64,000 nucleotides of DNA. Source: Variovorax paradoxus (GTDB taxonomy: Bacteria > Pseudomonadota > Gammaproteobacteria > Burkholderiales > Burkholderiaceae_C). The DNA is taken from the NCBI RefSeq assembly GCF_030815855.1, contig NZ_JAUSXG010000001.1:1178001-1242000 (forward strand). Reading direction: 5' to 3'. Every line of letters starts with the position of its first letter. Within the stretch, counting starts at the first letter, position 1. The translations under genes were made by a program, and so were the position numbers. A model generated the notes under the pieces. The model did no database searches, was not told where the DNA came from, and saw only the letters and a list, made by a program, of their open reading frames with translations. Of the stretch, positions 26,069-38,697 are shown piece after piece.

Positions 26069-26848
26069 CTAGGTTTTGAGGTCGGAATACAGGCCGGTCA
26101 CGCGGTCCATGATGGCGAGCAGGTTCTCGCTGGTCACGAACACGTCGGACATGAGGGCGGGCGAGGCACCCGCGCCTTCGAGGCGTTGGAGCCCGCGATT
26201 GAAGAACATCCATTGGGCATCGGCCAGTACCAGCTCTTGCCGGATCTGCGGAGTGGCTTCCGGCGCACCGCGCAGGATTTCGAGCGCGGCCAGGAATTCG
26301 GCGCGCGACTTGGCGATCTCGGCCGTGCTGCCAACCGCGTCGATCTGCATCGCGCCGGCCAGGTAGAACTTAGCCATGCGCTGCGACAGCATGCGCTGCC
26401 GCCCCGCGATGTTGACCAGCCGGCCCACGGGCTTGCCCGAAGCGGCTTCGTACTGCGTGGTGCCCTGGTTCGCGAGTGCGAGCACGGCGGCATCGAGCTT
26501 GACCACCTTGGCGGCCTCTTCCTTGTTGGGCTCCATGCCCATGAGCTCGCGCTTGAAGTCGCCCCAGGCGCCGCCGAGCGTGTCGTAGGTGCCGCGGATG
26601 GCCGGGCTCGGCGCAAAGGCCTTGAGCTCGCCCAGTTGCTTTTCGAACAGCGCAATCGACTTGTCGAGCACCTGCTGCGCATTGCGCGTTTCCACGTTCT
26701 GCACGAGCGCCAGGTAGGCCTTGCTCGCGCGCTGCGACAGCATGCGCAGGCGCCCCGCCTTGTTGATGGCGTCGTTGAGGTCGGCCACCTGCGCGCGGGC
26801 ACCCGCCGCGGCCAGCGCGGAAGAAGCGATGAAGAGTCGTCTTTTCAA
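26069..26848 (-). CDS. Exported PilJ/NarX P-box-like protein without output domain
   Basis: A 259-residue protein made of a signal peptide (LKRRLFIASSALAAAGARAQ) and two copies of the type IV pili MCP N-terminal motif: DAINKAGRLRMLSQR at residues 26-40 and LVNIAGRQRMLSQR at about 144-157. The first resembles the periplasmic P-box by which NarX binds nitrate. No membrane anchor after the signal, no kinase, HAMP or other output domain. The TTG at 26848 is chosen because GGAG lies 9 bases upstream; a GTG at 26875 overlapping the nirB stop is the alternative. Likely a periplasmic nitrate/nitrite-binding partner (inference). Confidence 0.75.
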   Translation of the reverse strand: MKRRLFIASSALAAAGARAQVADLNDAINKAGRLRMLSQRASKAYLALVQNVETRNAQQVLDKSIALFEKQLGELKAFAPSPAIRGTYDTLGGAWGDFKRELMGMEPNKEEAAKVVKLDAAVLALANQGTTQYEAASGKPVGRLVNIAGRQRMLSQRMAKFYLAGAMQIDAVGSTAEIAKSRAEFLAALEILRGAPEATPQIRQELVLADAQWMFFNRGLQRLEGAGASPALMSDVFVTSENLLAIMDRVTGLYSDLKT

Positions 26849-29361: not shown

Positions 29362-29435
29362 GGGGTGGGGCCTTTCAGCGAATCAATCGATGGGAAGCGC
29401 TCGGGCGCGCGTGGAAGCACGTGGAGAATGGCGCC

Positions 29436-31136
29436 ATGAGCTTTGAAGTGGACATCGGCTACAGCAGCCAGCGCGGACCGCGCGACGTGAACGAAGACTT
29501 TGCCGGTGCCGTCAACGCACCGCCGGGCGACGAGTCGCGTGGTCTCATTGCGGCCATTGCCGACGGCGTGTCCACAGGCGGACGCGGCCTGGAGGCGGCT
29601 CAGACCACGGTCATGGGCCTGCTCGCCGACTACTTCGCCACGCCCGACACCTGGGAGCCGACCGCCGCGCTCGACCGCCTGGTCGCCGCGCAGAATGCCT
29701 GGCTCGCCGATCACAACCGGCGCCGCCAAGGCAGCGCGACCGCGCTCACCACGTTGACGGCATTGGTGCTGCATGGCCAGAGCTACACGCTCGCGCATGT
29801 GGGCGACACGCGCGCCTGGCGCGTGCGCGCCGACGGCGAGCCGGCCATGCCGCTGACGCAGGACCATGCCTTCGAGCATCCCGACATGCGCAGCCGCTTG
29901 ACGCGCGCCATCGGCCTGGACGATCAGGTGCGTGTCGACTATGCGCAGGGCGACGTGCGCGTGGGTGACTGCTTCGTGCTGACCTCCGACGGCGTGCACG
30001 GCGTGCTCAAGCCGCAGCGGCTCGCCGCGCTCGCCTTGCAGGGCGGTGCCGAGCAAGCGAGCGAGGCCCTGGTGCAGGCGGCCATCGACGCCGGCACGCG
30101 CGACAACGCGACCGCGCTCGTCATTCGCGTCGTCGGTCTCGACGTGCGGCAGCTGGACGACGAGCTCGGCGACGGTCGCCGACTGGCGCCGCCGCCCTTG
30201 TTGAAGGTGGGCGATGCGCTCGACGGCTACGTCGTCACTGCGCTCGTGGCCGACACCGGCGTGCACCTGTTGTACCAGGCGCGCAACCCGGCCACGCGCG
30301 AGCTGGTGGCGCTCAAGACGCTGCACCCCTCGCGCGCCAGCGATCCGCAGGAGCGCGCGATGCTTGCGCACGAAGCCTGGCTGGGCCAGCGCGTGGGAAG
30401 CGGTGGATTCGTGCGCGTGCACGAGCGTGCCGAGAACGCCAGCGCGCTCTACATCGTGTTCGATTGGCACGGCGGGCGCACGCTGGAGCAAATGCGAAAA
30501 TCCGGCGCGCGCGGCGCGGTGGCCGAGGTAGTTGCCGCCGCCATCGAGGTGACCAAGGCTCTGGGCCGGCTGCACCGCCATGGCGTCGTGCACCGCGACA
30601 TCAAGCCCGGCAACCTGCACCTGGGCGACGACGGCCGGTGGCGCATCCTCGACCTCGGCGTGGCGCTGTCCGGGCGCGAAGGCGCGGCGCAGCGCGAACT
30701 GCATGCGGGCACGCCCAGCTACATCAATCCCGAGCAATGGGAGGGCGCCCATGCCGATACCGCGAGCGACCTGTTCGCGCTCGGGGTCACGCTGTACCAG
30801 TGGCTCGGCGGGCATCTGCCCTACGGCGAAATCGAGCCCTACCAGGTGGCGCGCTACCGGCGCGACCCGGCCGCACTCTCGCGGCTGCGGCCCGATGTGC
30901 CCGTGTGGCTCGACCACCTGGTGCGCAAGGCCGTTGCGCGCGATCCGCGGGAGCGCTTCGAAACCGCCGAGGAAATGCTGCTGGCCCTCGAACGGGGTGC
31001 GTCCCGCCCGGTCGGTGCGCCGCCCGCCACGCCGCTGATCCGCCGCGACCCGGCCGCGCTCTACAAGATCGCGCTCGCCGTGTCGTTGCTGTTCAACGCA
31101 CTGCTCGTGGTGTGGTTGCTCTTCTTGCCACGCTGA
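29436..31136 (+). CDS. Bifunctional PP2C phosphatase / Ser-Thr protein kinase with C-terminal membrane anchor
   Basis: A 566-residue fusion. Residues 1-240 are a PP2C-type phosphatase (GPRDVNEDF, IADGVSTGG, LAHVGDTRAWR, LTSDGVHG, RDNATALV). Residues about 265-510 are a Hanks-type kinase with Lys294 (VALKTLHP), HRDIKPGN at 386-393 and DLG in place of DFG; its glycine loop is degenerate. One hydrophobic segment (IALAVSLLFNALLVVWLLFL) ends the protein, placing both domains in the cytoplasm at the membrane. It lies divergent from nirB and convergent with narK, and probably tunes nitrate assimilation by reversible phosphorylation; its targets are unknown. Confidence 0.88.
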   Translation: MSFEVDIGYSSQRGPRDVNEDFAGAVNAPPGDESRGLIAAIADGVSTGGRGLEAAQTTVMGLLADYFATPDTWEPTAALDRLVAAQNAWLADHNRRRQGSATALTTLTALVLHGQSYTLAHVGDTRAWRVRADGEPAMPLTQDHAFEHPDMRSRLTRAIGLDDQVRVDYAQGDVRVGDCFVLTSDGVHGVLKPQRLAALALQGGAEQASEALVQAAIDAGTRDNATALVIRVVGLDVRQLDDELGDGRRLAPPPLLKVGDALDGYVVTALVADTGVHLLYQARNPATRELVALKTLHPSRASDPQERAMLAHEAWLGQRVGSGGFVRVHERAENASALYIVFDWHGGRTLEQMRKSGARGAVAEVVAAAIEVTKALGRLHRHGVVHRDIKPGNLHLGDDGRWRILDLGVALSGREGAAQRELHAGTPSYINPEQWEGAHADTASDLFALGVTLYQWLGGHLPYGEIEPYQVARYRRDPAALSRLRPDVPVWLDHLVRKAVARDPRERFETAEEMLLALERGASRPVGAPPATPLIRRDPAALYKIALAVSLLFNALLVVWLLFLPR

Positions 31137-32579: not shown

Positions 32580-32599
32580 GCGGTGCTTCGTTACACCGC
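32580..32599 (-). promoter_or_regulatory. Single ANTAR-like hexaloop hairpin in narK leader
   Basis: On the minus strand GCGGTGT and GCACCGC pair (one T-G wobble) around the six-base loop AACGAA, which has A at position 1 and G at position 4. It lies 160 bases before the narK start. I found no matching second hairpin and no T-run terminator, so it is only a weak candidate. Confidence 0.3.
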
Positions 32600-32678
32600 A
32601 CCCGTATCGATGCAAGAGACGTGCCTGCGAAAACGAGCGGGCGTGGCCTATGCTTGACGTGCCTTCAACCGCTTTTCC

Positions 32679-33977
32679 ATGATCTCCCTTCTTGTCGTTC
32701 TGCCCAATGAATTCGCCGACTCCGCGCCGTTGCCGGAGCAACTCCGGCAGGCGCTGGCGAGTGCCGGTGCCACCGCCGGCGAGCGGGCCACCTGCCACAC
32801 GCTGGTGCAGCGGGCGGGGGCGCTTGCACCGCAACAGGTGCTGGCCTGGCTGCCCGAACCGGCGCCGGCGCAACAGCTGCAGGCGCTGCTCGATGCCCTC
32901 GGTGAGTGGAAAGGCGCGCCCCCTTGCGCGCTGAGCCTCGTCAGCGCCCCGCTGGACAGCGCGCAGCACGAAGCGCTGGTCGCGCTCGGCGTGCATGCGT
33001 GGCTGCCGCTGGGCGCCGTCGATGGCGCTTCTCTTTCCGCGTTGACGGTCCTGGCGCAAGCCCGTCGGGGACGCGAGGCCGCGCTGCGCACCGAACTCGA
33101 CGGCCTGCGCACACGCATGGACGAACGCAAATGGGTCGACCGCGCCAAGGGCCTCCTGATGTCGTCCCGCGGCATTGGCGAGGACGAGGCCTTCGGCTTG
33201 CTGCGCGGTGCGGCCATGCACGCCAACCTGCGGCTCGGCGAGGTCTCGCGCTCGGTGATCGAGGCCGCGCAGTGGGCCGATGCCATCAACCGCGCCGGGC
33301 AACTGCGCATGCTCTCGCAGCGGCTCGTGCGGATCGCGGCGCAGATGCTGGCCGGCATCGACGTGCAGCGCGCGCGCGTCTTGCGCACGCAATCGGTCGA
33401 GCGGGTGCAGCAAAACCTGGATCATCTGGCGACCCTTGAACTGGGCGCTCCGGGTGCAGGTGCGCTGGGCGAGGTGCAGGCCGCGTGGAGCGGGCTTTCT
33501 GCTGCACTGGCGGCGCGCGCGGTGCCGCAGGCACTGGCCGATATCGACCAGCGCGGTGACGATCTGCTGGCCGCGGCTGAGGCGCTGACCGATGCGCTGG
33601 AAGCATCCGGGGCACGGCGCGCGCTGCGCATCGTCAACATTTGCGGGCGGCAGCGCATGCGCGCGCAGCGCCTGGCCAAGGACGCATTGCTGGCCTCGGC
33701 ACTTGCCGCGGGCGCTTCGCGCGAGCGCCTGCTGCCGACGATGAACGAGTTCGAGGCCGCGCTGCTGGAACTCGAGCGCGCCCCTCTCAGTTCACCCGAG
33801 ATCCGCGCGGCACTGGCGGCCGCACGGGACGAATGGCTGCGCCTGGTGGGTGGGGTGCAGGCGCTCGAGAGCCCTGAAGGCCGCGCCACGCTGGTGCGGT
33901 CCAGCGAGGCGCTGGTCGATACCTTCGAGCGCCTCACCGCCTGGTACGAGCACAGCCTGCAAGTCATCATGTCCTGA
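32679..33977 (+). CDS. ANTAR-domain RNA-binding regulator with two NarX P-box-like (PilJ) motifs
   Basis: A 432-residue cytoplasmic protein (no signal peptide or membrane segment). Residues 1-130 look like a degenerate response-receiver region. Residues about 142-196 are an ANTAR domain (MDERKWVDRAKGLLMSSRGI ... AFGLLRGAAMHANLRLGEVS). Then come two PilJ/P-box-like motifs: DAINRAGQLRMLSQR at 201-215 and RIVNICGRQRMRAQR at 317-331, close to those in the exported protein at 26069. This joins a nitrate-type sensor to an RNA antiterminator in one polypeptide. Divergent from narK, convergent with nrtD. The likely target is the leader at 37102-37217. Confidence 0.82.
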   Translation: MISLLVVLPNEFADSAPLPEQLRQALASAGATAGERATCHTLVQRAGALAPQQVLAWLPEPAPAQQLQALLDALGEWKGAPPCALSLVSAPLDSAQHEALVALGVHAWLPLGAVDGASLSALTVLAQARRGREAALRTELDGLRTRMDERKWVDRAKGLLMSSRGIGEDEAFGLLRGAAMHANLRLGEVSRSVIEAAQWADAINRAGQLRMLSQRLVRIAAQMLAGIDVQRARVLRTQSVERVQQNLDHLATLELGAPGAGALGEVQAAWSGLSAALAARAVPQALADIDQRGDDLLAAAEALTDALEASGARRALRIVNICGRQRMRAQRLAKDALLASALAAGASRERLLPTMNEFEAALLELERAPLSSPEIRAALAAARDEWLRLVGGVQALESPEGRATLVRSSEALVDTFERLTAWYEHSLQVIMS

Positions 33978-34002: not shown

Positions 34003-34812
34003 TCAGGCGGCAACCTTCTCCACGTGCGCCTGGCGCGTGTAGAGAAAATCGATCACGGCCTTGCGCGCGTGCACGTAGGCGGGGTCTTCGGCCAGTTCGA
34101 CACGGTTGCGCGGACGGGCGATGTCGACCTTCAGCACTTCGCCGATGGTGGCGGCCGGGCCGTTGGTGAGCATCACGATGCGGTCGCTCAGCAGCACCGC
34201 TTCGTCGACGTCGTGCGTGACCATGACCACGGTGCTCCGGGTCTTCTGCACGATGGCGAGCAGTTCGTCCTGCAGCTTGGCGCGCGTGAGCGCGTCGAGG
34301 GCGCCGAAGGGCTCGTCCATCAGCAGCACCTTGGGTTCCATCGAGAGCGCGCGCGCAATGCCGACGCGCTGCTTCATGCCGCCGGAGATTTCGCCGGGGC
34401 GTTTTTGCGCGGCGGGCGTGAGGCCGACCATCGCGAGCGCCGCATCGGTGCGGGCGCGCAATTGCGCCTTGCCTTCGGTGGCGGCAAAGACACGCTCGAC
34501 CGCGAGGTACACGTTCTCGAAGCAGGTGAGCCAGGGCAGCAGCGAGTGGTTCTGGAACACGACCGCGCGCTCGGGGCCGGGGCCCTTGATTTCGCGGTTG
34601 GCGCACAGCAGCACGCCCTGCGTCGGCGTCGTCAGGCCGGCAATCAGGTTCAGCAGCGTCGACTTGCCGCAGCCCGAGTGCCCGATCAGCGTGACGAACT
34701 CGCCTTTGGCGACATTCAGGTTGACGCCCTGCAGCGCGACGAAGCTGCCCTTGGCCGTCTTGAAGCGCTGCTCGACGTCGTGGATCTCGATGTACTTCGA
34801 ATCATCATTCAT
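34003..34812 (-). CDS. nrtD: Nitrate ABC transporter ATP-binding protein
   Basis: A 269-residue ATPase of the NrtD/SsuB/TauB type: Walker A GHSGCGKST, signature ISGGMKQRVGIARAL, Walker B ending MDEPFGALD. It energises the NrtB permease. No NrtC-type fused ATPase is present, so it probably acts as a homodimer. It follows nrtB by 55 bp. Confidence 0.9.
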   Translation of the reverse strand: MNDDSKYIEIHDVEQRFKTAKGSFVALQGVNLNVAKGEFVTLIGHSGCGKSTLLNLIAGLTTPTQGVLLCANREIKGPGPERAVVFQNHSLLPWLTCFENVYLAVERVFAATEGKAQLRARTDAALAMVGLTPAAQKRPGEISGGMKQRVGIARALSMEPKVLLMDEPFGALDALTRAKLQDELLAIVQKTRSTVVMVTHDVDEAVLLSDRIVMLTNGPAATIGEVLKVDIARPRNRVELAEDPAYVHARKAVIDFLYTRQAHVEKVAA

Positions 34813-34867: not shown

Positions 34868-35806
34868 TCATGACTTCACCTCTTCGAACGTGAATGCGGT
34901 AGCAAGCTTGATGAGCGCGAACTCCAGCACCAGGCCCACGATGCCGATCACGAAGATCGCGATGATGATGTTGGCGACGTTGAGGTTGTTCCACTCGTCC
35001 CACACCCAGAAGCCGATGCCGACGCCGCCGGTGAGCATTTCGGCCGCAACGATCACGAGCCAGGCGGTGCCCACGGCCAGACGAACGCCGGTCAGCATGT
35101 AGGGCAGCACGGCCGGGAACAGGATCTTGGTGAAGATCTTCCATTCGCTGAGGTTCAACACCTTGGCCACGTTCATGTAGTCGCTCGGCACGCGCTGCAC
35201 GCCGACCGCGGTGTTGATGACCATCGGCCAGATCGAGCAGATGAAGATGGTCCAGATGGCGGCCGGGTTGGCACCCTTGAACACCAGGAGGCCGATGGGC
35301 AGCCACGCCAGCGGCGACACCGGGCGCATCAGGCTGATCAGCGGATTGAACATGCGCGAAAGAAACTCGAAGCGTCCGATGGCAAAGCCCGCGGGAATGC
35401 CGACGGCGGCTGCGAGCCCGAAGCCCAGCGCCACGCGCTGCAGCGACGACAGCACGTTCCAGCCCACGCCCTGGTCGTTGGGCCCCTTGCTGTAGAACGG
35501 ATCGCTGAACACCGTGAGCGCCTGCTGCCAGGTGGCGAGCGGCGAGGGAAAGCCGGTGGTGCTCTTCATGGCGACCAGCTCCCAGATCAGCACCAGCAGG
35601 CCGAAGCCCGCGAGCGGCGGCAGCACGCGCATCCAGAAGGCACGCAGGTCGATGGATGCGCGTTGCTTTTGCACCCTCTCCGCTTTGGGGAGAGGGCTGG
35701 GGTGAGGGGCCACCTCGGCGCGGGGCACCGCCTCGCTCCGGCCCTCTCCGGCACGCGGGAGAGGAAGAGACGCGTCCATCGGCGAATGAAATACAGCACT
35801 GACCAT
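34868..35806 (-). CDS. nrtB: Nitrate ABC transporter permease with repeat-encoded N-terminus
   Basis: A 312-residue inner-membrane permease (EAA-like loop region MNVAKVLNLSEWKIFTKILF). The start at 35806 has AGGAGAAACAC upstream. Residues about 11-46 (including PLPRAGEG and PHPSPLPKAERV) are encoded by the dispersed repeat at 35671-35765 and precede the conserved LRAFWMRVLPPLAGF. The repeat keeps the frame open, so the protein carries a proline-rich cytoplasmic extension. Located between nrtA (13 bp) and nrtD. Confidence 0.9.
   Translation of the reverse strand: MVSAVFHSPMDASLPLPRAGEGRSEAVPRAEVAPHPSPLPKAERVQKQRASIDLRAFWMRVLPPLAGFGLLVLIWELVAMKSTTGFPSPLATWQQALTVFSDPFYSKGPNDQGVGWNVLSSLQRVALGFGLAAAVGIPAGFAIGRFEFLSRMFNPLISLMRPVSPLAWLPIGLLVFKGANPAAIWTIFICSIWPMVINTAVGVQRVPSDYMNVAKVLNLSEWKIFTKILFPAVLPYMLTGVRLAVGTAWLVIVAAEMLTGGVGIGFWVWDEWNNLNVANIIIAIFVIGIVGLVLEFALIKLATAFTFEEVKS
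35671..35765. repeat. Dispersed palindromic repeat inside nrtB coding sequence
   Basis: Two hairpins with arms CCCTCTCC/GGAGAGGG (35674-35696) and CCTCTCC/GGAGAGG (35743-35764) around GGGCTGGGGTGAGGGG. Same family as the copy at 22696-22802. It is translated in frame as part of the NrtB N-terminus. Confidence 0.8.
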
Positions 35807-35819
35807 GATGTGTTTCTCC

Positions 35820-37064
35820 TCAGACGTGGAGCTTGAAAGAGTCGGCATATTTCTTCGGGTCCTTGCCGTCCCACACGGAGCCGTCGAACAGCTTGCTGGT
35901 GCGCATCACGTCCTTGGGCACGGGCGTCTGCGTGGCGGCGGCGGCTTGCTTGTAGATGTCGATGCGGTTGATCTCGGTGGCCACCTTCAGGTAGTCCGGA
36001 TGCTCCTTCAGCAAGCCCCAGCGCTTGTGCTGCGTGAGGAACCACATGCCGTCCGAGAGGTACGGGAAGGTCACCGCGCCGCCGTTGTAGAACTTCATGT
36101 GGTTGGGGTCGTCCCAGCTCTTGCCCATGCCGTTGATGTAGCGGCCCAGGATGCGCTGGTTGATGGCATCCACGCTGGTGTTGACGTAGCTCTTGTCGGC
36201 AATGGTCTCGGCCATCTTGTTCTTGTTCTGCAAGCCGGTGTCGATCCACTTGCCGGCTTCGATGATGGCCGCGGTGACTGCACGCGCGGTGTTGGGGTAC
36301 TTCTTGACGAAGTCGCCCGTGGTGCCGAGCACTTTCTCCGGATGGTCCTTCCAGATGTCCTGCGTGGTGATGGCCGTCACGCCGATGCCGTCCATGATCG
36401 CGCGCTGGCCCCAGGGCTCGCCCACGCAGTAGCCGTCCATGTTGCCCACGCGCATGTTGGCCACCATTTGCGGAGGGGGCACGGTGATGTTCTTGACGTC
36501 CTTGAACGGATCGATACCGGCCGAGGCCAGCCAGTAGTACAGCCACATCGCATGCGTGCCGGTGGGGAAGGTGTGGGCGAAGGTGTATTCGCGCTTTTCA
36601 GCCGCGATCATCTTGGCCAGCGACGCGGCGTCCACCGCGCCCTTGTCGGCGAGCTTCTTCGACAGCGTGATGGCCTGGCCGTTGTTGTTGAGGGTCATGA
36701 GCACGGCCATGTCCTTCTTGGGACCGCTCAGGCCCAGGTGCATGCCGTAGACCAGGCCGTAGAGCACATGCGCCATGTCCAGGTCGCCGTTGGAGAGCTT
36801 GTCGCGTACGCCGGCCCAGCTGGCTTCCTTGCTGGGCACGATCTTCACGCCGTACTTCTTGTCGATTCCCAGCACCGAGGCCATCACCACGCTGGCGCAG
36901 TCGGTCAGCGGAATGAAGCCGATCTTCACTTCTTCCTTTTCCGGCTTGTCGGAGCCCTGGGCCCAGACGGCGGCGCGCAGGGCGGGATCGATTCCCACGG
37001 CGCCAATGGCGGCGGCTTGCAGTACGCGGCGGCGGCTGAGGCGGGTTTTCAGCAGGTCGGTCAT
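35820..37064 (-). CDS. nrtA: Nitrate ABC transporter substrate-binding protein (NrtA/CmpA family)
   Basis: A 414-residue periplasmic protein. The start at 37064 gives a twin-arginine signal (TRLSRRRVLQAAAIGAVG). The mature part matches NrtA/NasF (IGFIPLTDCASVVMA; TFPTGTHAMWLYYWLASAGI; GNMDGYCVGEPWGQRA), which bind nitrate or nitrite. First gene of nrtABD, downstream of a leader with an ANTAR antiterminator. A frame extending to 37199 would translate the terminator hairpin and is rejected. Confidence 0.93.
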   Translation of the reverse strand: MTDLLKTRLSRRRVLQAAAIGAVGIDPALRAAVWAQGSDKPEKEEVKIGFIPLTDCASVVMASVLGIDKKYGVKIVPSKEASWAGVRDKLSNGDLDMAHVLYGLVYGMHLGLSGPKKDMAVLMTLNNNGQAITLSKKLADKGAVDAASLAKMIAAEKREYTFAHTFPTGTHAMWLYYWLASAGIDPFKDVKNITVPPPQMVANMRVGNMDGYCVGEPWGQRAIMDGIGVTAITTQDIWKDHPEKVLGTTGDFVKKYPNTARAVTAAIIEAGKWIDTGLQNKNKMAETIADKSYVNTSVDAINQRILGRYINGMGKSWDDPNHMKFYNGGAVTFPYLSDGMWFLTQHKRWGLLKEHPDYLKVATEINRIDIYKQAAAATQTPVPKDVMRTSKLFDGSVWDGKDPKKYADSFKLHV

Positions 37065-37101: not shown

Positions 37102-37177
37102 CAAAAAACAAAAAGGCGTCCCGCACCGCGCAAGGGGCTGCTCGAGAACGAGCCCTTGCGGGATGGGGGACGCCTTT
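37102..37177 (-). terminator. Intrinsic terminator in the nrtA leader (attenuator)
   Basis: On the minus strand AAAGGCGTCCC pairs with GGGACGCCTTT, enclosing a second long stem (CGCAAGGGCT with AGCCCCTTGCG), and is followed by TTTTTGTTTTTTG. It ends about 38 bases before the nrtA ATG. Its position between promoter region and gene marks it as an attenuator rather than a terminator of nasR alone. Confidence 0.88.
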
Positions 37178-37181
37178 GTCC
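37168..37181 (-). promoter_or_regulatory. ANTAR target hairpin P2 (overlaps terminator 5' arm)
   Basis: On the minus strand GGAC-AAAGGC-GTCC forms a 4-bp stem with a six-base loop having A1 and G4. Its loop and 3' strand are the same bases as the 5' arm of the terminator, so P2 and the terminator exclude each other. Ten bases separate it from P1. Confidence 0.75.
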
Positions 37182-37191
37182 GATTGCGGTG

Positions 37192-37217
37192 GGCAACACC
37201 CGCCGTTGGGTGCTGCC
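37192..37217 (-). promoter_or_regulatory. ANTAR target hairpin P1
   Basis: On the minus strand GGCAGCACCC and GGGTGTTGCC form a 10-bp stem (one G-U) closed by the six-base loop AACGGC, again with A1 and G4. Two such hairpins in tandem are the known binding unit for ANTAR antiterminators such as NasR and EutV. In the rest of the 37065-37416 gap I see no gene; the nrt promoter should lie upstream of P1 but I cannot place it securely. Confidence 0.8.
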
Positions 37218-37416
37218 TGCCTGGGACCCAGGGGTCCATGGACTACTTCAGCAAACTGCGTGCCAGCTTTAGTGGCCGCTTTTTGCTAGCGCTTTGCTAT
37301 CGAATAGGCAGCAAAAGAGCGACTGTGCGTGCGTGCGCGGGGCGCCTCGCGCGGAAAGCCGCCGCCATGCACGCTTGTTGTGCGCTGCACCATTTCGAAC
37401 GCATGCGAGCCGCGGT

Positions 37417-38697
37417 TCAGCGCCGCGATGTCACATCCAGGGGCAGGTAGTCGGCCATGGCGAGCATCGACTCGGCGACGTCGACGAGCCGGCGCTTCTG
37501 GTTCATGGCCGTTTGCAGCAGCATCTTGTGGGCTTCGTTCTCGCTCATGCGGCGGTGCGCCATCAAGAGTCCCTTGGCGCGTTCGACCAGCTTGCGCTCG
37601 TTGAGGGAGGCGCGAACCGTTTCGAGCTCCTCGCTCATGGCCTGCAGCCGGTGCGATTGCTCCTGCACCATGTCGAGCACCGAACGTTCGAGGTGCCGCC
37701 CGTATTGCGCCGGCGCGGTGGCCTCCGCACCGATGTCGTCGAAGAAGACCGCGCCTTCGGCTTGCGGCGCAAGGGTGCCGAGCACCTCCTGGTATTTCTG
37801 CAGTTCGCCGCGCGCCTGCGCGATCTTGCGGGCGCAGAGCTCGCGCAGGTCTTCGGCCAGCCGCTGTTCGACGGTTTTCATCGCGTCGATGCGGCGGGTG
37901 CAGCAGTCGAACCAGTTCTGGCTCAGCCGGGGATCGGGTGCGGCCGCCGAAGCGGCTTGGGCGGAGGTCACGCTCATGCGGCGCACGCGCTCGATCTCGG
38001 CCATGACGGCGTCGGACTGGCTCTGGTGCCAGAGCGCAAGCACGCCGCTGCTCGAAAAATCGATGAAGACCTGGAAACAGCGCTCCTGCAGCGCGATGAG
38101 GTGCAGCCATTGCTGGCGCTGCGCTTCGTCGGTACGCCCCACCGCGAGCGACGCCGCGCCGAACGCGCGCTCCTGCCCGGCAAACTCCTTGCCCTGCATG
38201 AAGTTGAACATCGCGACGAGCAGGCGGGAAATCTCGGGGTCGGTGGCGCCGTCTGCCGCCTCGAACACCACCGCCAGCAAGCCGGCGACGAGCTTGGCGA
38301 AAGCGGCGGTGGCCTGTGCGGGTGTCAGTTCGAGCGCGCCGACGCGGCGGCGCAGCGCGGGCAAGCCGTCCAGGCCCGGCAGCACCCAGGCTATCCGGCT
38401 GAAGAGCCGGGCGCTGTTGCCCGCAGTGGCGCCCGGGCGGCCCTGGCTCTCGAGCTGGTCGAATCCGGCGCGCACTTCCTGTTCGAGCGCCAGGCATTCC
38501 ACAATTTGCGGATCGCGCTGGTCGGCGAACCGGACACCGCGAGAGGCGAGAAACACGTTGGACATGCCGCGCTCCCGCTGCAGCGCATGGACGAGCCGCG
38601 CGATCAGCCCGACCAGGTCGCTGGTGCGCGCGAGCTGGTCGAGCTCGTCGATTTCGCACTTTCTGGCGGCGATCAGGAAATTCAGTCCGGATTTCAT
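37417..38697 (-). CDS. nasR: Nitrate/nitrite-responsive antiterminator NasR (NIT-ANTAR)
   Basis: A 426-residue cytoplasmic protein. Residues about 35-290 match the all-helical NIT nitrate/nitrite sensor ([20 protein letters not shown] is its signature). Residues about 360-415 are the ANTAR domain ([20 protein letters not shown] ... [15 protein letters not shown]). In Klebsiella NasR, nitrate binding to NIT frees ANTAR to bind leader hairpins and block termination. The gene lies directly upstream of nrtA in the same direction; the P1/P2 leader is between them. Divergent from tsaD over 75 bp. Confidence 0.92.

Follow-up and report, generated by a model that had tools for sequence, protein, structure and literature searches.

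Which signal and which protein control the nitrate transporter operon nrtABD of Variovorax paradoxus is the question raised by the intergenic region between nasR and nrtA. This leader lies on the minus strand of the 64,000-nucleotide stretch of DNA analyzed here (the window), with nasR upstream and nrtA downstream, and the genome from which the window comes has two ANTAR genes, for NasR and for an ANTAR-PilJ protein, neither of which is of the NasT form. From the sequence, we consider it very likely that an ANTAR-type transcription antitermination switch that responds to nitrate controls nrtABD, with NasR as its probable effector. The features concerned are collected in Table 1.

Table 1. Positions in the window of the nrtABD leader, its genes and candidate effectors, and the narK leader
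Feature	Position	Strand	Remarks
nasR, NIT-ANTAR protein, favored effector	37417..38697	minus	NIT 3e-54, ANTAR 3e-17, both above Pfam cut-off
Conserved inverted repeat TGGTGCAGCGCACA, candidate NtrC-like enhancer site	37379..37392	minus	127 nt upstream of sigma-54 promoter
sigma-54 promoter TGGCACGCAGTTTGCT	37250..37265	minus	predicted transcript start ~37239
H0, 5'-terminal hairpin GGACC-CCTG-GGTCC	37224..37237	minus	directly after predicted transcript start
P1, first hexaloop hairpin GGCAGCACCC-AACGGC-GGGTGTTGCC	37217-37192	minus	10 bp, one G-U; loop 37207-37202
Linker from P1 to P2	37191-37182	minus	10 nt
P2, second hexaloop hairpin GGAC-AAAGGC-GTCC	37181-37168	minus	4 bp; loop 37177-37172
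Intrinsic terminator	37103..37177	minus	5' arm AAAGGCGTCCC from 37177; 3' arm GGGACGCC 37122-37115; U-rich tail from 37114
nrtA, first gene after the switch	35820..37064	minus	NMT1_2 8e-103
nrtB, nitrate ABC transporter permease, start codon uncertain	34868..35848	minus	TIGR01183 above cut-off
nrtD, nitrate ABC transporter ATPase	34003..34812	minus	TIGR01184 above cut-off
ANTAR-PilJ protein, less likely effector of the nrt leader	32679..33977	plus	ANTAR 143-194, two PilJ stretches
sigma-54-like promoter of narK	32610..32626	minus	before the narK hexaloop hairpin
Single A1/G4 hexaloop hairpin GCGGTGT-AACGAA-GCACCGC, candidate ANTAR-PilJ target	32580..32599	minus	near predicted narK transcript start

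The original prediction had placed twin hairpins with the hexaloops AACGGC and AAAGGC in this leader, 10 nt apart and with A1 and G4 in both loops, and this was confirmed on the minus-strand sequence. Both loops are closed by a C-G pair, and the loop-to-loop distance is 24 nt. The terminator was said to take its 5' arm from the loop and the 3' strand of P2, and sequence and fold agree; sharing a strand, P2 and the terminator are mutually exclusive. The MFE fold of the segment (-69.3 kcal/mol, z -6.15, with none of 200 shuffles equally stable) contains P1 and the terminator without P2, and the P2 form therefore requires help to exist. A strict scan for two A..G.. hexaloops on stems of at least 4, a terminator arm beginning near the second loop and a T-rich tail gave a single match in the window and none in 40 first-order-Markov shuffled windows. 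The terminator stem is very stable by itself when folded, as would suit constitutive attenuation or a boundary of nasR transcription with hexaloops present by chance. This explanation is hardly credible, as the scan pattern did not arise in the shuffled windows, the hexaloops and the P1 pairing are kept across genera at one place with compensatory change, and a sigma-54 promoter sits between nasR and the hairpins.

Switches of this kind are known. Published work describes a dual hexaloop model of ANTAR antitermination (PMC3369931), the selection by NasR in SELEX of C-G closed hexaloops with A1 and G4, with nitrate-dependent binding (PMC7496416), and the binding of hexaloops one after another (PMC8934654). 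The nasF leader of Klebsiella oxytoca and its NasR resemble the system described here in the NIT-ANTAR protein, the A1/G4 dual hexaloop, the C-G closing pairs, the second hexaloop within the terminator and the Ntr control (PMC3369931, PMC7496416, PMC5424462). They differ in that the Variovorax operon encodes the NrtABD ABC transporter in a beta-proteobacterium, that an extra 5' hairpin, H0, is present, and that the leader has a form found together with NasT in most of the fetched relatives. The eut leaders of Enterococcus and EutV share the dual hexaloop mechanism (PMC3369931, PMC8934654), whereas EutV is a two-component response regulator with ethanolamine as the signal. In the mechanism that we propose for nrtABD, nitrogen shortage would start transcription via sigma-54, probably together with NtrC. 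Without nitrate, the RNA would fold into P1 and the terminator, and transcription would stop near position 37103. With nitrate, the NIT domain of NasR would free the ANTAR domain, which would bind P1 and then P2 and hold P2 closed, and RNA polymerase would pass into nrtA.

The sigma-54 promoter and H0 were absent from the original prediction and are added here. In 23 aligned Variovorax leaders, the TGGCAC and TTGC columns of the promoter are invariant or near-invariant, and the promoter is also aligned by the Rfam P11 and narK models, both below threshold. The inverted repeat TGGTGCAGCGCACA upstream of it is a candidate NtrC site. In 36 of the 55 leaders with a sigma-54 match, a count without a shuffled control, a site that fits a broad pattern occurs no more than 260 nt ahead of the promoter, and its commonest form is TGGTGCNNNGCACA, at -117 to -140. 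H0 folds in 23/23 Variovorax leaders, with stem changes on both sides and short, variable loops (CCTG, CACG, TTCG, GCAA and GAAA among them). Its probable role is that of a 5'-end structure with no part in ANTAR recruitment.

The leader is conserved. Among 26 Variovorax loci collected by a search with the ANTAR-PilJ protein, 22 keep it, and the scan found no other such leader in the 26, although two loci (L007 and L025) have a second, alternative first hairpin besides the main leader. Three of the four misses (L020, L026 and L027) end before the leader position; the fourth, L024, is a different case, in which nrtABD, NasR and the leader are all absent from the 10-kb flank. A covariance model of P1 and P2 (R1), trained on leaders with the P2 loop AAAGGC, matched 43 of 200 family genomes (45 matches, E up to 0.01). 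Order-wide it matched 4 of 300 genomes at E up to 1e-3, few because the model is narrow. The P2 element lies no more than 900 nt upstream of nrtA in 37 of the 43 fetched leader loci; the remaining six comprise one with a model match only (L182) and five without nrtA in the fetched stretch.

The original prediction was staked on covariation of the two stems in related genomes, and the stems behaved differently. Inside Variovorax, covariation is slight, with one pair changed on both sides among 19 distinct sequences. Across genera, 6/7 P1 pairs changed on both sides in 34 diverse leaders, and the P1 covariation score was 0.372 against a shuffled mean of 0.100, a value reached in 0/500 shuffles, with slid versions at 0.06-0.08. 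A weaker measure, the number of P1 pairs changed on both sides, gave 7 versus 5.6, equaled by 12/500 shuffles. Because only P1 helices with stems of 3 bp or more were taken, selection favors the inner three pairs. The 34 leaders are the 38 rows of the P1 table minus L161, L167 and L173 (arm cut one base off) and L164 (a copy of L152); extraction had failed for L163 and L182, which accounts for the 38 rows and for the 27 of 29 NasT loci in the H0 count given below. P2 is constant in the 34, in part since the pattern used to collect relatives fixed its stem as GGAC/GTCC; A1 and G4 were likewise part of the selection. The model match L182, which escaped the pattern, reads TCGGGC-AAAGGC-GTCCGA, with one side of one P2 pair changed and the pair kept as G-U. 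In L152 and L164, the P2 loop is AAAGAC and the terminator arm is GGACGTC instead of GGACGCC, a compensatory change that argues for base-pairing between the P2 loop and the terminator's 3' arm.

Neither the window nor any of 20 related loci reached the gathering score of an Rfam family; two families aligned with the leader below that score. The Pseudomonas P11 RNA (RF00625), which we take to be a NasT target, aligns over the sigma-54 elements, P2 (GGACAAAGGCGUCC) and the terminator arm (25.7 bits, E 4e-4). The window leader nevertheless scores far below the gathering score of 70, and the P11 consensus has two A1/G4 hexaloops before its GGACAAAGGCGUCC element, whereas the Variovorax leader has one. 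The narK RNA (RF03032) aligns over the whole model by its sigma-54 elements and a GACAAAGNCGUC element (24.6 bits), but below the gathering score of 43.2, and the part of the model shown has no visible base pairs.

The original prediction named two possible ANTAR effectors, encoded on either side of the leader. NasR carries a NIT domain followed by an ANTAR domain within one protein; its homology to K. oxytoca NasR (4akk, E 2e-45) extends over residues 7-414, with the motifs ERG and EIExxRR aligning with 4akk. ANTAR-PilJ has an N-terminal part without a family match; its ANTAR domain scores above the Pfam cut-off and, in tblastn, is often the better-scoring match to NasT-like ANTAR domains. 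The PilJ stretches have P-box-like motifs; INRAGQLRM, with G207 and R210 invariant in 19 Variovorax proteins, resembles the nitrate-binding GxxR described in PMC8199190. The gene neighbors nrtD in the window, as it does in 22 of the 26 Variovorax loci. ANTAR-PilJ might thus act on the nrt leader, either as its effector or alongside another one, with nitrate sensed by the tandem PilJ stretches and P1 and P2 bound by the NasT-like ANTAR domain, but we consider this improbable. Among 200 family genomes, the leader occurs in 43, ANTAR-PilJ (<1e-33) in 35 and both in only 6 (G000, G337, G350, G415, G454 and G455), against about 7.5 by chance, so that ANTAR-PilJ is not associated with the nrt leader in this set. 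G368 and G469 have the leader without ANTAR-PilJ, and in L024 ANTAR-PilJ stands with narK at a locus devoid of nrtABD, NasR and the leader. In 29 of 30 loci, including the window, its gene is divergent from narK (23) or nirB (6); in the remaining one, L120, it is divergent from a gene with only 24% identity to narK. On these three grounds, the genome counts, G368/G469 and the narK/nirB neighborhood, we rejected ANTAR-PilJ as an equal partner of the nrt leader. What stands of the claimed switch is its anatomy, the covariation of P1 across genera and the adjacent nasR; two equal effectors are not supported.

Two other genes near narK and nirB were observed. A small protein of two PilJ stretches (26069-26842, minus strand) is encoded downstream of nirB in several Variovorax loci as well, and a PP2C phosphatase fused to a Ser/Thr kinase (29421-31136, plus strand) is encoded between nirB and narK, a position that it also has in many relatives.

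The favored reading, in which NasR serves the nrt leader, is supported by gene content. In G368 and G469, NasR adjoins an AAAGGC-type nrtA leader and is the only ANTAR match, and in G486, which also has an AAAGGC-type nrtA leader, the sole ANTAR match is NasR, located elsewhere. Because NasR is the only ANTAR gene in these three genomes, it can, by elimination, presumably serve an AAAGGC leader. It is also conceivable that NasR and ANTAR-PilJ act on both the nrt and the narK leaders, as members of a shared nitrate regulon with overlapping specificity. ANTAR recognition is reported to depend mainly on A1 and G4 (PMC3369931, PMC8934654), and both leaders have these bases; moreover, narK/nirB-type leaders in five genomes without ANTAR-PilJ suggest that other ANTAR proteins may serve them. 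The gene neighborhoods of nrt and narK nevertheless suggest preferred partners rather than cross-talk, and we regard joint action as unlikely, if less so than a role of ANTAR-PilJ at the nrt leader.

A comparison of the 43 leader loci with 17 NasR loci, hand-picked from 57 NIT matches below 1e-34 and annotated with the others by tblastn, raises the possibility that the reader of this RNA has changed. The order tsaD, ANTAR gene, leader, nrtA is common to loci with NasT, with separate NIT and NasT proteins and with NasR; tsaD is in the fetched stretch of 23/43 leader loci and 15/17 NasR loci, usually beyond the ANTAR gene and pointing away. At the 43 leader loci, the ANTAR gene is NasT-like in 29 (208 aa in L150), a NIT+NasT pair in 2 (L152 and L164, of one genus code, with a separate NIT protein and then a NasT-like protein) and NasR in 4 (L142, L143, L162 and L177). 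The other eight have no ANTAR gene adjoining the leader in the fetched stretch (L148, L160, L165, L169, L174, L175, L176 and L181), five of them being without an nrtA match. With NasR adjacent at only 4 of the 43 and NasT-like proteins at 29, the RNA alone does not identify NasR. In the pair loci (L152:8026-9689 and L164:15685-17315), the NIT-only protein directly before the NasT-like ANTAR protein looks like a two-gene NasR.

Wherever the P2 element was found in NasT loci (28/29), its loop reads AAAGGC; in the pair loci the loop is AAAGAC, and before nrtA it is AACGGC in 15/15 of the NasR loci L185-L199 and in L177. The AACGGC leaders have a wider gap between hexaloops where P1 was found, with P1, by eye, at the position of H0: the loop-to-loop spacing is 28-38 in the 10 of 15 NasR loci L185-L199 with P1 found and 22 in L177, and 19-31 in AAAGGC leaders. 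Variovorax, G368 and G469 are the exception, with NasR paired with an AAAGGC leader. Since NasR loci elsewhere in the family carry an AACGGC P2, the reading of AAAGGC leaders by NasR rests on elimination. The AAAGGC leaders were collected by a model trained on AAAGGC, and the link of NasT to AAAGGC and the contrast with AACGGC are therefore partly built in; L062, an ANTAR locus with a NasT-sized frame and an AACGGC second loop, may be a counterexample. The third base of the P2 loop was rejected as a marker of the protein, as NasR-only genomes also hold AAAGGC (L185 and L193 before nirB, L187 elsewhere). In four genomes of the family (L164:3294, L179:14551, L185:15613 and L193:2886), second hexaloop elements followed by terminator-like arms also stand immediately ahead of nirB.

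At least 5 changes of reader are required on the NrtA tree and 8 on the TsaD tree, in which most branches are weak; the TsaD tree places the NasR/AACGGC genome L188 beside Variovorax. The TsaD tree offered too few pairs for an independent-pairs test to decide; this test and the H0 hexaloop count did not include the alternative hexaloops of L007, L025 and L164 or the additional leaders of L185, L187 and L193. In L017 and L018, NrtA is 83% identical to that of the window, yet NasR, the leader and the gene order are Variovorax-like, and L018 lies elsewhere on the NrtA tree, which suggests that nrtA alone was replaced. The family appears to keep one RNA element while swapping two-component-type and one-component readers, and NasR may have displaced NasT in Variovorax under a kept leader. 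What seems to be new here, under biased ascertainment and with weak trees, is that the ANTAR gene before the leader may be NasT, NIT+NasT or NasR and that Variovorax combines NasR with the NasT-like form of the leader. In Klebsiella, nasR functionally replaces nasTS, according to PMC5424462; added to this is an apparent exchange of readers within one family at one locus.

H0 occupies the position at which NasT-served relatives often carry a third hexaloop, and its counterpart in other genera frequently has an A1/G4 hexaloop. Such a reading, with a stem no shorter than 4 bp, is available in 14 of the 27 scored NasT leaders and in 2/2 NIT+NasT leaders, against 0/26 NasR leaders of the AAAGGC form and 1/4 leaders that have no ANTAR gene next to them. 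When the 27 NasT regions were shuffled, the mean was 0.4 and the maximum 3 (200 trials). The 26 NasR leaders represent two genus codes only, and their lack of the hexaloop therefore reflects at most two events. The P11 consensus, too, has two A1/G4 hexaloops before its GGACAAAGGCGUCC element. We speculate that the third hexaloop is an extra recruitment site, which would fit the proposal in PMC8934654 that the protein is first recruited by one hairpin and binds the antitermination hairpin afterward.

A second family of leaders is found before narK and nirB. The AACGAA hairpin of narK, with a stem of 6-7 bp, is present in 27/27 Variovorax narK leaders, including that of the window. Across narK/nirB leaders, 27 of 29 have a six-base-loop hairpin with G4 (required by the rule) and with A1 (18) or G1 (9), 32-37 nt after the -24 GG of a sigma-54-like promoter; shuffled regions had a mean of 1.9 such hairpins and a maximum of 6. 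No hexaloop pair with a terminator was found in the 30 ANTAR-PilJ loci scanned, including the narK leader of the window. A run of four T is missing from the last 260 nt in 19/29 leaders, but on visual inspection a few (L098, L101 and L109) appear to close with a stem followed by T-runs. The rule finds a second such hairpin in 10 of 14 leaders, around which the alignment fold of the 14 adds a GCAC:GTGC helix. By eye, the GTGC stretch runs on into CCTCC in several leaders, and this CCTCC could pair with a downstream GGAG near a start codon.

A model of the narK/nirB leader (R2) matched 38/200 genomes at E up to 0.05, with 22 below 1e-6; 14 of these 22, on which the partner counts are based, form its training set. 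It had no match in the genome of the window or in G415, both of which keep only the first hexaloop. ANTAR-PilJ is present in 3 of the 8 strong-match genomes outside the training set. Five genomes with matches below 1e-6 are without ANTAR-PilJ, the sole ANTAR match being NasR in G391 and G403 and NasT-sized in G421, and the narK/nirB leader was accordingly rejected as an exclusive partner of ANTAR-PilJ. NasT-type hairpins have been predicted before narK in Bradyrhizobium (PMC6759348), which also places ANTAR-type hairpins before narK, and translational action has been ascribed to ANTAR RNAs of actinobacteria (PMC8164766), which shares with our reading of the narK/nirB leaders the idea of translational control by ANTAR proteins; the available parts of the two texts name neither ANTAR-PilJ nor the narK/nirB layout found here. 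A literature search with most subscription journals outside its coverage likewise found no paper on the ANTAR-PilJ protein or on the nrt or narK/nirB leaders, which is no proof of novelty.

Our results indicate that the nrtABD leader is a real, well-formed ANTAR antitermination switch; switches of its kind are known, and the reader of this one is most probably NasR. This is a textbook type of switch, yet no Rfam family covers the leader at threshold in the window or in the 20 related loci. What raises interest in it comes from comparison alone: the RNA appears to stay fixed while its readers are exchanged, and a second, terminator-poor leader family lies beside it. As a tentative possibility, still short of a probable one, the nitrate leaders of the family could form a mix-and-match system. 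One switch before nrtA would work with exchangeable sensors (NasT, NIT+NasT or NasR), often with a third hexaloop where NasT is the sensor, and the narK/nirB leaders tied to ANTAR-PilJ would switch translation, a helix around the second hexaloop competing with a helix that covers the ribosome-binding site. The kept RNA and its exchanged readers provide a natural test set for what ANTAR proteins demand of their RNA in spacing, third loop base and number of hexaloops, and the narK/nirB leaders tied to ANTAR-PilJ may represent an undescribed class of ANTAR targets.
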